In this document: piece after piece, positions 34,829 to 38,174 of the stretch
Numbering within the stretch: the stretch's first letter is position 1
Layout of the letters: every line of letters begins with the position of its first letter
Assembly (NCBI GenBank): GCA_026386805.1
Contig: JAPLMX010000128.1
Coordinates: forward strand, 1-64,000
Length of the DNA: 64,000 bases
Direction of reading: 5' to 3'
Source of the DNA: Phycisphaerae bacterium
Lineage (GTDB): Bacteria > Planctomycetota > Phycisphaerae > Sedimentisphaerales > Anaerobacaceae
Translations under genes and position numbers: made by a program
The notes under the pieces: generated by a model
Told to the model about the DNA's origin: nothing
The model's input: the letters and a program-made list of their open reading frames with translations, nothing else
Database searches by the model: none

Positions 34829-35163
34829 ATCGACCTGCTTTGCCTGAGCGTCAAACCCTCCAAAAGCACCGCAAATACGAACCCAACACCCGACTGCCTT
34901 ACTTCCATGCTTGCTGTTCGTGACGAATCTGGGAGCCTGTTAAGTGGCCGTCGGATATAGGTCCAACCGCGTTATCTGCGGCCCCCATTTCAGTTCATCC
35001 AAACCATAAGAATTGGGTGGCAAGGTGCCAAATGAAGGAAGGAGAACATCCGCAGATTACGCAGATTTTCACGGATTCAGGGGAGACAAATCGGCGTGGC
35101 CTACCATCCTTCTGAAGAATCTGCGCAAATCTGCGACGGAACGATATACTTTGCAAACCCACA

Positions 35164-35205
35164 AAAATGGGGGCGCACAGGCCGAAGCTCGTGCGCCCCC
35201 ATTTT
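35164..35205. terminator. 15-bp perfect inverted repeat AAAATGGGGGCGCAC...GTGCGCCCCCATTTT
   Basis: Read directly; terminator-like with A/T flanks. Confidence 0.6.
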
Positions 35206-35470
35206 ACTCAGGCGGTCACATAAAAGCAGAAGCATTGCGCATGCTTCGGGTAGACCAGCCTACCTGTACGCCAGTGCCGAAAGCACTTGACGAAGACCAG
35301 TCGGCCCCGTCTGGGCGCAGGGAATAAGCGATTTTTTGGACTCATTCGTAAAACCTTTCTCGGAACCTCTTGACTTACGGGGCCGGATGGTCGATAATAA
35401 GTGTGGATACAATTATCGTGGGCATCCTGCCCCAGCCCGTGGGTTTGATTCCGTTAAAACCACGGGAGAC

Positions 35471-35514
35471 AGCAAACTAAGGCCGTCAGTACCCGCTGAC
35501 GGCCTTAGTTTGCT
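35471..35514. terminator. 19-bp perfect inverted repeat AGCAAACTAAGGCCGTCAG-tacccg-CTGACGGCCTTAGTTTGCT
   Basis: Read directly; contains the stop codon of the 35505-36359 gene; bidirectional terminator-like. Confidence 0.8.
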
Positions 35515-36359
35515 TCATCGGCTTCTTCAACATCATTTCCAAGATCTTCGTCCTCTGGTAGACTCTCGATGAATATATCAAGATGCCTTTTCAGAAGCTC
35601 AATGTAGCGTTTCAGCTTCTTGGGCTTCAAGCCGACCTTGTTCATCCCGGATATTGTCAATTGCGCACCCACTCCCATGCCCAATTGAACGGTCCACGGC
35701 ACACTCCACGTCTCTATCACCTCTGGTTTGTTCTCTACCGTCTTAGTCGCCTTGGACAGATCAATCGTTCTCACGGGAGGTTTCTCCTCAACTGGCGCTT
35801 CTTCGTGCTTGTCTTCATTGTCGCCAGTATAATCTCCCTGAGAGAGCTTGGCAAAGTCAATTGTCGCGCGAAAGTCAGTAATAAACCCAGCGATAGCCTT
35901 TGGGTTGAACTTCTTTTCCCACTCCAAATAATTGCTGAGAATGTCATCCGGCGGAATACCATCAGTCTTGTACTTGTCCCATACTTCAGCATACACAGCG
36001 GGACTGAGTGCCGCTGCCTGGAGAAGCCCCTGCCGATCTGGATGGTTTCGTATGATCTTCACAGCAGCATCTGTGAGTCTGATCGCCCGCTTGTCCTTGT
36101 CGCCGGACACTTCTATGAGGCCGTATGCTTTTAGTGCGGCGACGGTTTGGATGACCAAGCCGCTCATTGACTTGTAGCCCCATTTTGTGTGAATCGCAGT
36201 GATCGGCACCTGCACCTGCTTGTAGGCGTCGTATACCTCTTTCGCTCTTTCGACAGCCTTCACCAAGTCCAGTGCAGGATAGTTCGGGCTGCGATCTCTG
36301 GGCCGTCTTGATTCCTGTCCAGCCTTGCTTTCTTTTGGCGATTCTGTGTTGTCCGTCAT
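35505..36359 (-). CDS. hypothetical protein (284 aa), DUF5343-like winged-helix region
   Basis: Clear promoter TTGACT-17-TATAGT upstream; ALKAYGLIEVSGDKDKRAIRLTDAA. Confidence 0.7.
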   Translation of the reverse strand: MTDNTESPKESKAGQESRRPRDRSPNYPALDLVKAVERAKEVYDAYKQVQVPITAIHTKWGYKSMSGLVIQTVAALKAYGLIEVSGDKDKRAIRLTDAAVKIIRNHPDRQGLLQAAALSPAVYAEVWDKYKTDGIPPDDILSNYLEWEKKFNPKAIAGFITDFRATIDFAKLSQGDYTGDNEDKHEEAPVEEKPPVRTIDLSKATKTVENKPEVIETWSVPWTVQLGMGVGAQLTISGMNKVGLKPKKLKRYIELLKRHLDIFIESLPEDEDLGNDVEEADEAN

Positions 36360-36382
36360 AGTATAACTCCTTTCTGTTCAGA

Positions 36383-36411
36383 ACTATACACAGTACATCG
36401 GGCCAAGTCAA
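36383..36411 (-). promoter_or_regulatory. sigma70-type promoter TTGACT-17-TATAGT for the hypothetical gene
   Basis: Read on the minus strand. Confidence 0.6.
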
Positions 36412-36452
36412 ATATAATATATCGCCCAAACAGAGATTCATTGATTTTTTTA

Positions 36453-36481
36453 TTGACGCCGCAATCGCCGTGGAGTAGAGT
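36453..36481 (+). promoter_or_regulatory. sigma70-type promoter TTGACG-17-TAGAGT upstream of the tRNA
   Basis: Read directly. Confidence 0.55.
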
Positions 36482-36537
36482 ACATGAAAATGCCCCGCAG
36501 GGCGTCTTGCAAGGGCCACCCCACAGGGCATTTGGTT

Positions 36538-36622
36538 GGACGGTTGGTCGAGTGGTTTATGGCGCCTCCCTTACAAGGAGGTAAGGTTTCGACCTTCGGG
36601 GGTTCGAATCCCCCACCGTCCG
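36538..36622 (+). tRNA. class II tRNA with anticodon UAC (Val codon) on a tRNA-Ser-like body
   Basis: Acceptor GGACGGT/ACCGTCC, anticodon stem CCTCC/GGAGG with loop CTTACAA, variable arm AAGGT-TTCG-ACCTT, T arm GGGGG-TTCGAAT-CCCCC, G73, no encoded CCA. Confidence 0.88.
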
Positions 36623-36631
36623 GTAACATTT

Positions 36632-36675
36632 GAAAGGACGTGCGTCTGCTTGATCGGCCTTCGCCACGTCCTTTC
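36632..36675. terminator. 11-bp inverted repeat GAAAGGACGTG...CACGTCCTTTC downstream of the tRNA
   Basis: Read directly; possible terminator. Confidence 0.5.
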
Positions 36676-36768
36676 TCGGCCGCCCGATGCAGGAGCACCG
36701 ATGCAGCGTACTTACTTTATCGGTTTCTCAGTCTTCTGTCAAGGGGCAATTGGTAATGGGAGACGAGA

Positions 36769-37725
36769 ATGAACGTCACAAGTGAGGCTAAATTGAACCT
36801 TGCTACGCTCTCTTCGCTGTTTGTAGATGAAGAGAAGGCCCGTAAGTTCCTTGAGGACAAACGCTGGCCAAACGGTCCCGTCTGCCCGCACTGCGATAGC
36901 ACGAATATCTACACTCTGACCGCCAAGTCGGACAGCCGAAAGCCAGTTCGTCCAGGCGTCTACAAGTGCGGAAGTTGCCGGGAGCAATTCACAGTACGGA
37001 TTGGCACTGTTTTTGAGGAAAGCAAGATTCCACTCCGGAAATGGCTCATGGCGATTCACTTGATGACGAGTAGCAAGAAGGGGATAAGCAGTCACCAGAT
37101 TGCCCGAGAAGTGGGAATTACACAGAAAAGCGCCTGGTTCCTGTGCCACCGAATCCGAGAGGCCATGAGACAAGAGCCGACGGGGGGTCTGCTAAAGGGG
37201 ACGGTCGAAGCCGATGAAACCTACGTCGGCGCTCGAAAGCCTCGGTTCAAAGGAACGAGCAAACGGGGACGCGGCACCTCCAAGAAACCTGTCATGGTCC
37301 TCGTGGAACGCGCTGGGAACGCACGGTCCATGCCCATCGAGAGGGTGGACTCCGCCACACTCAAGGGTGAGGTCCGAAAGCACGTTGATCGGTCTGCACA
37401 GATAATGACAGACGATTGGAAATCCTACGATGGACTCGACAAGGAATTTGCGGTACATGACGTGATATGCCACGGAACAGGAGAATATGCGCGGAAACGC
37501 GGCGACGGCCTCTCAGTCAACACAAACACTGCCGAGTCATTTTTCGCGTTGCTGAAGCGGGGCCACTATGGTATCTTCCATTCGTTCAGCCGCAAGCACA
37601 CGCATCGGTACTGTGATGAGTTCAGTTTCCGGTGGAACCGCCGCAAGGTCAGTGACGGGGAACGAATGGTTGCGGCAATCAAGGGCGCTGAGGGCAAACG
37701 ACTCACATATAAGCGTGGTCGTTGA
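36769..37725 (+). mobile_element. IS1595-family-like transposase
   Basis: CPHCDSTNIY...YKCGSCREQFTVRIGTVFEESKIPLRKWLMAIHLM; VEADETYVG; NTNTAESFFALLKRGHYGIFHSFSRKHTHRYCDEFSFRWN. Confidence 0.9.
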
Positions 37726-37739
37726 AGAAGGACACTGAC

Positions 37740-37880
37740 ATGAGAAAAGGTCGGTCGCGCGGTTCTCACGCGAAACTCGATAGCATCAAGATCGACCTTC
37801 CCTTTGAGAAGGCTGTAGAGGTTCTGCTCTCGGTCAAGCCCAAGAAGAAGCCCGTTAAGAAAAAGAAGGTTAGCAAGTAG
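37740..37880 (+). CDS. small basic protein (46 aa, Lys-rich C-terminus)
   Basis: MRKGRSRGSHAKLDSIKIDLPFEKAVEVLLSVKPKKKPVKKKKVSK; starts 15 nt after the transposase stop. Confidence 0.55.
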   Translation: MRKGRSRGSHAKLDSIKIDLPFEKAVEVLLSVKPKKKPVKKKKVSK

Positions 37881-37921
37881 GCTGAGACGGGACACATGGT
37901 ACAAAAGAGAGGACGTGCGTA

Positions 37922-38080
37922 ATGGCTTGGTACAGTTGCCAGAAGTTCCGGAGACACTTTTCTTTGTGCTTTGGCGTTTGCAGCACTCACGTCGTCACCC
38001 ATTCCTTCAAGCCAGCGTCAATACGCCGCCTGCGCGGGTTAGCGAAGTGGCTCAGCAAGAAAGGCAAGTCTGCCAAGTAA
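37922..38080 (+). CDS. small basic protein (52 aa)
   Basis: MAWYSCQKFRRHFSLCFGVCSTHVVTHSFKPASIRRLRGLAKWLSKKGKSAK. Confidence 0.4.
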   Translation: MAWYSCQKFRRHFSLCFGVCSTHVVTHSFKPASIRRLRGLAKWLSKKGKSAK

Positions 38081-38174
38081 GATGATCGTGGGTTTGCCAA
38101 GTATATCATTCCGATCTGCGAAATCTGCGGATTGGATTTGTTTCTCGTTCGGATTTCGATATCAAACGGTGGTA

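Follow-up and report, generated by a model that had tools for sequence, protein, structure and literature searches.

Mistranslating tRNAs are rare in nature and have no settled biological role. SerRS and LeuRS ignore the anticodon, so that their tRNAs can be charged whatever anticodon they carry. Among the systems closest to the locus described here, the tRNA-ProX group (tRNA-ProA/N/T) of Streptomyces and Kitasatospora joins the body of one amino acid's tRNA to the anticodon of another (PMC10365949, PMC11415595). The synthetases that serve Ser and Leu bodies do not read the anticodon, odd bases at position 33 occur in known mistranslating tRNAs, and in Candida a tRNA-Ser(CAG), itself odd at position 33, decodes the Leu codon CUG as Ser (PMC11415595). 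Another related kind, the allo-tRNAs of Mukai et al. (2017), comprises class II tRNAs of serine identity that have non-serine anticodons and an acceptor branch of 8/4 or 9/3 form; among them is an allo-tRNA(UAU) pseudogene that overlaps with a transposon-related ORF, and an association with transposable elements has been suggested (reviewed in PMC7609411).

Our analysis showed that the tRNA gene found in the 64,000-nt stretch of DNA studied here (the window) combines a serine-type body with a valine anticodon. ARAGORN called a tRNA-Val(TAC) at 36537-36623, Rfam RF00005 matched 36538-36622 with 55.2 bits (gathering score 29), and a chance origin is excluded (0/100 shuffles). Read by eye, the sequence forms a complete 7/5 cloverleaf in which all stems are intact: acceptor GGACGGT/ACCGTCC, D stem GTC/GGC, anticodon arm CCTCC-CTTACAA-GGAGG, a long variable arm with a 5-bp stem (T-AAGGT-TTCG-ACCTT-C), T stem GGGGG/CCCCC and discriminator G73. 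Body type was assessed with covariance models made from 11 tRNA-Ser and 8 tRNA-Leu genes of the host genome, relatives and phages, the window tRNA being left out of both training sets. It scored 76.8 bits with the Ser model vs 44.9 bits with the Leu model; for reference, the host tRNA-Ser(UGA) scored 94.7 and 50.8 bits. The long variable arm, G73 and D arm are thus those of a tRNA-Ser, with UAC in place of a serine anticodon, while the long arm and G73 do not suit tRNA-Val, which is class I with a short variable loop and A73. The initial annotation, which had read a complete cloverleaf with a Ser-type body and a UAC anticodon from the letters alone, is therefore borne out by ARAGORN, Rfam, our own reading and the isotype models, and the isotype-versus-anticodon comparison that it proposed does reveal a mismatch. 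Identity to the four host tRNA-Ser is 62–67% (56–58% to the two host tRNA-Val), which means that the gene is neither a recent copy of a host tRNA-Ser nor a one-base sequencing error of one, a misread serine anticodon having been named there as a refuting case. The promoter-like sequence pointed out in the same annotation was found as well (Table 1).

Table 1. Positions in the window of the tRNA gene, the element that carries it and the parts of that element.
Feature	Position	Strand	Basis and remarks
Ser-type class II tRNA, UAC (Val) anticodon	36538..36622	+	G73, 7/5 acceptor/T stems; ARAGORN, Rfam, covariance models
Anticodon TAC	36572..36574	+	Sequence reading
Promoter-like TTGACG-17-TAGAGT, upstream of the tRNA	36453..36481	+	9/12 consensus matches; weak evidence
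IS1595-family transposon, 2,977 bp, tRNA carrier	35137..38113		Inverted ends, exact 8-bp target duplication, empty site
Left target-site duplication ATCTGCGA	35129..35136		Sequence
Right target-site duplication ATCTGCGA	38114..38121		Sequence
Left terminal inverted repeat CGGAACGATATACTTTGCAAACCCAC	35137..35162	+	24/26 complementary to right end
Right terminal inverted repeat	38088..38113	-	26 bp, pairs with left end
IS1595-family transposase, 318 aa	36769..37725	+	Pfam PF12762 + PF12760, NCBIfam NF033547; GUA codons 19, 76, 229
Passenger ORF, 284 aa	35505..36359	-	No family match
Small ORF, 46 aa, KLDSIKIDLPFEKAVEVLLSVKPKKK, 3' of transposase	37740..37880	+	Sequence reading

The gene had been placed next to an IS1595-like transposase; the transposase is indeed there, but the tRNA is not a mere neighbour of it, since it lies inside its transposon and is a passenger of it. 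The element belongs to the IS1595 family by its IS1595-type DDE transposase (136.2 bits with PF12762, 206 bits with NF033547), its terminal repeats paired over 24/26 bp and its exact 8-bp duplication ATCTGCGA, and a blind search for inverted ends and 8-bp duplications around the transposase recovered identical ends. In five congeneric genomes the site is empty, the prepilin genes being followed almost directly by tsaE; the same gap in the window measures ~3.1 kb. Inverted ends, target duplication and empty site together show the carriage by a mobile element that had been offered as one option. No close copy of the transposase or of the 284-aa ORF was found in the congeners; the latter has distant relatives elsewhere, without a window-type transposase. 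By eye, the 46-aa ORF resembles small ORFs of related elements (PERLKIDGDWEDAVSKALNKKKP).

The host assembly (5.55 Mb, 279 contigs, 93.5% complete) holds four normal tRNA-Ser genes and class I tRNA-Val genes with GAC and CAC anticodons, which supplies the list of normal isoacceptors that the initial annotation wanted. The window's is the only mismatched tRNA seen in this genome; the other 37 called tRNAs look ordinary. Among the tRNAs called in this fragmentary assembly there is no class I tRNA-Val(UAC), which means little because indispensable tRNAs, e.g. Tyr, are missing from it too. In the 88 other genomes of the family there was no match to the window tRNA, so that conservation by descent was rejected and the search for the same Ser/UAC chimera in related genomes, suggested earlier, came back empty. 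The tRNA region likewise had no match among plasmids and phages. When genome contigs were scanned with an IUPAC pattern for Ser-type UAC tRNAs, 29 stretches were retrieved, three of which are real bacterial class II UAC tRNAs; the remainder were archaeal tRNA-Val genes (mostly intron-bearing) or chance matches. The hosts of these three unrelated genes are a member of the Bryobacterales (L052:7221-7314), one of the Chitinophagaceae (L058:5547-5632) and one of the Magnetococcales (L071:7696-7784). Each of the three fits the Ser model better than the Leu model, and none has an IS1595 transposase beside it. A phage array (L081, IMGVR_UViG_3300001765_000034) contains Trp(CCA), Pro(TGG), Gln(TTG) and Val(TAC) genes of 84–87 nt with long variable regions, possibly further body/anticodon mismatches. 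Elsewhere, a remnant of the 3' part of a tRNA-Asp (G000:C208:12374-12449, L036) is possibly an old integration site.

Relatives of the transposase, the best ones from the same class and then from other classes of the phylum, were fetched with their flanks, and elements were counted as closed when they had inverted ends and an exact 8-bp duplication. In many of these relatives the transposase is accompanied by a class II tRNA whose anticodon does not match its body, and 14 closed elements, the window's included, have a mismatched tRNA inside. Eight of these carry a Leu-type UGG tRNA (L150, L158, L160, L161, L162, L165 (=L229), L169 and L218), two a Leu-type UGC tRNA (L216, L219) and one a Leu-type UUA tRNA (L167); the Ser-type tRNAs are UAC in the window and UAG in L234, whose transposase is 54% identical to the window's, and a class I Arg-like tRNA with ACU is found in L170. 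Six incompletely closed elements have further Leu-type UGG tRNAs beside their transposases (L148, with inverted ends and no target duplication, L159, L164, L166, L183 and L233). By comparison, the seven ordinary tRNAs in the fetched stretches (Thr in L160 and L168, Gln in L170, Gly in L214 and L216, Gln and Glu in L215) all lie outside the closed elements, i.e. 14/14 mismatched tRNAs are inside vs 0/7 ordinary ones. In the transposase tree, every tRNA-bearing element falls into a single clade with full support (35 rows, 18 of them with a tRNA), about half of whose elements show no tRNA, and the other group of 11 has none at all; tRNAs are likewise absent from the four relatives of the transposase on plasmids. 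Mismatched tRNAs thus seem to be a recurrent, apparently standard piece of equipment of this transposon group.

Several details of individual elements may be added. The Arg-like ACU tRNA (L170:4025-4101, +) would read the Ser codon AGU, and its C35 and U36 would still suit ArgRS. Two distant elements have a second, degenerate tRNA-like sequence directly beside the Leu-type tRNA (L167:4221-4294, -, and L233:4204-4275, +), scoring 26–29 bits with tRNA models. The transposase ORF is broken by TAA in L166 (3007-3993) and by TAG in L165, yet the UGG tRNA is still carried. One genome (G077; L145, L146, L147 and L157) has several recent related IS1595 copies with different passengers and no tRNA, so passengers of these elements seem to be exchanged freely, and no function common to the passenger families was found. 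One tRNA-bearing element encodes a passenger protein with HTH and M78 peptidase domains (L161:4755-5954), whose best PADLOC match is RmrA.

We then aligned 16 Leu-type element tRNAs, 13 with UGG, two with UGC and one with UUA, to the Leu model. Standard pairs filled 99.2% of the pair cells, vs 66.9% in shuffled and 38–45% in slid alignments, and 116 cells were compensated (both sides changed), vs 31.8 shuffled and 17–28 slid; a model-fitted alignment leans towards pairing, and the sequences compared are very diverse. All 16 have A73, while the anticodon stem, position 33 (U, C, A or G) and position 37 vary. These data show that the cloverleaf of the Leu-type element tRNAs is under selection. 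The inert tRNA mimic, one of the options first considered for the window gene, is accordingly disfavoured, as related transposons keep a cloverleaf, the right discriminator and a mismatched anticodon under selection.

A comparison of the transposase genes points to what the UGG tRNAs could act on. In the IPLACADE-motif clade, a fixed Pro codon near position 20 is CCA in 10/10 transposases that have a UGG tRNA alongside (including L233, which came to light only once the rule had been noticed) and CCG in 3/3 without a UGG tRNA (L167, which has UUA, and L168 and L217, which have none). The CCG genes sit on two separate tree branches, each adjoining CCA genes. At the other Pro codons of the same ten genes CCA makes up 24/116 and is scrambled between genes; the product of the per-gene CCA frequencies is ~5e-8 if the genes are taken as independent, a figure weakened by their relatedness. 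Across whole genes, CCA accounts for 46/162 Pro codons with a UGG tRNA vs 58/344 without (p 0.002), and leans in the same direction were seen for GCA with UGC (p 0.06) and CTA with UAG (p 0.10). Taken together, these patterns suggest that the UGG tRNA acts on the mRNA of its element's own transposase. L149, cut by a contig end, has CCA at the fixed codon; L159 and L162 have the UGG tRNA and lack the fixed Pro codon; and no target codon is evident for the UUA and ACU members. For the window tRNA the codon link is weak, consisting of a GUA at codon 19 of a transposase with no GUA enrichment (3/21 Val codons vs 155/1060).

Several further readings of these codons were tried and rejected. Strict recoding of CCA to Leu does not fit, given that elements lacking the tRNA retain Pro, encoded by CCG, and that Leu occurs at this site in none of the relatives. 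In the window's transposase, GUA codon 19 aligns with a Ser belonging to an F-S-D motif of distant relatives; we did not count this, as the nearest relatives have other residues. Read-through of UAA in the UUA element L167 gave no convincing fused ORF, and a common position of the cognate codon (16–23) in all elements was a post hoc idea that fails for L159, L219 and L234.

In our view, the window gene is probably a serine-identity tRNA with a valine anticodon, belonging to a transposase clade in which mismatched tRNAs recur, that miscodes and has its own element's transposase mRNA as the likeliest direct target. Because SerRS and LeuRS disregard the anticodon, the element tRNAs should be charged and miscode. 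Host SerRS would charge the window tRNA with serine, the charged tRNA would compete with host tRNA-Val for GUA and perhaps GUG, and part of the valine codons would then be read as serine. With the transposase mRNA as the most likely direct target, the outcome would be a mixture of normal and substituted transposase by which transposition is tuned or limited, host proteins being mistranslated as a side effect. The transposase step is modelled on the Leu/UGG relatives with their fixed codon matching the tRNA, and since Pro is kept there as CCG when the tRNA is absent, competition between tRNA-Pro and tRNA-Leu giving two transposase forms (e.g. for self-limitation) would fit better than full recoding. 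We infer the same function for the window's Ser/UAC tRNA by kinship and from GUA at codon 19. More generally, this IS1595 clade might control its transposase through a borne Leu- or Ser-accepting tRNA matching a chosen early codon, so that transposase activity would depend on partly reassigning one sense codon for the element's private use; this broader idea we offer tentatively, as possible and somewhat doubtful.

Other explanations have to be weighed against miscoding directed at the transposase. A35 and C36 are ValRS determinants in E. coli, and the window tRNA, which has both, could be charged with valine and act as an oddly shaped but ordinary tRNA-Val, supplying the isoacceptor not found in the host genome. 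Considering that this genome is fragmentary (93.5% complete) and lacks other necessary tRNAs such as Tyr, that G73, the long arm and the model score are of Ser type, and that Leu bodies with UGG and UGC in related elements are not explicable as tRNA-Val, we regard such a role as very improbable. A captured old tRNA-Ser gene whose anticodon drifted without function would agree with the single copy and with the lack of an ortholog in 88 relatives of the family, but such hitchhiking is improbable for a gene with all stems intact and G73, whose mismatched counterparts recur with compensatory changes across a supported transposase clade. A role as decoy or replacement, by which the element would escape being blocked by anticodon nucleases or tRNA-cleaving toxins of the host, is similarly improbable. 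Toxin-antitoxin- or defence-like genes do seem to occur among the passengers of related elements, e.g. the RmrA-like HTH and M78 peptidase protein, and a VapC gene lies beside a plasmid relative (itself without a tRNA). A decoy would, however, be expected to have the natural body for its anticodon, whereas nearly all element bodies are of Leu or Ser type, which would be expected if the tRNAs were retained in order to miscode, but not if they were decoys or debris; in addition, there is free variation in the anticodon stem and at positions 33 and 37, and the window element contains no toxin-like gene.

Unlikely, if less so, is a general mistranslation agent or addiction factor without a special link to the transposase, altering the host proteome for stress tolerance or punishing loss of the element. 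Charging by SerRS or LeuRS would affect all GUA or CCA codons of the cell, the anticodons are of several kinds (UGG, UGC, UUA, UAC, UAG, ACU), and some mistranslating tRNAs found in nature have stress phenotypes (PMC10365949, PMC11415595). Such an agent does not predict the switch between CCA and CCG at one transposase codon, tracking the presence or loss of the UGG tRNA; we favour miscoding with the transposase mRNA as its most likely direct target. If true, a transposon family that repeatedly bears Leu- or Ser-body tRNAs with several anticodons would introduce codon ambiguity from a new source, one that moves between genomes, and control of the transposase through one codon would be a testable reason for carrying a miscoding tRNA. 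Annotation based on the anticodon hides such genes, which were labelled tRNA-Val, tRNA-Pro, tRNA-Ala or tRNA-Stop here.

In the open-access literature (subscription journals being outside the scope of the search), we came across no account of an IS clade that has mismatched tRNAs among its components. The element tRNAs resemble tRNA-ProX as natural bacterial mismatches of body and anticodon, and several share its unusual position 33. At the same time, tRNA-ProX has a Pro body, class I structure and A34 and is located beside a variant ProRS, whereas the element tRNAs are Ser or Leu class II tRNAs in IS1595-family transposons, the window's having a Ser body and U34 in an element without a synthetase ORF. 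With Candida tRNA-Ser(CAG) the window tRNA has in common a serine body, a foreign anticodon and, as predicted for it, the recoding of a sense codon, and some element tRNAs share the odd position 33; the Candida tRNA is, however, eukaryotic, acts genome-wide and is not borne by a mobile element. In its sequence features, a predicted serine identity (Ser vs Leu model) and a non-serine anticodon, the window tRNA is like an allo-tRNA, one of the options named at the outset, but in the strict sense it is not one: its acceptor stem of 7 bp and T stem of 5 bp make up the 12-bp branch as 7/5 instead of 8/4 or 9/3, and the other element tRNAs are mostly of Leu type. The element itself resembles known IS1595-family passenger transposons in its DDE_Tnp_IS1595 transposase, inverted ends, 8-bp duplications and diverse passenger ORFs, and what sets the present elements apart from these is a recurrent tRNA gene with a mismatched anticodon.
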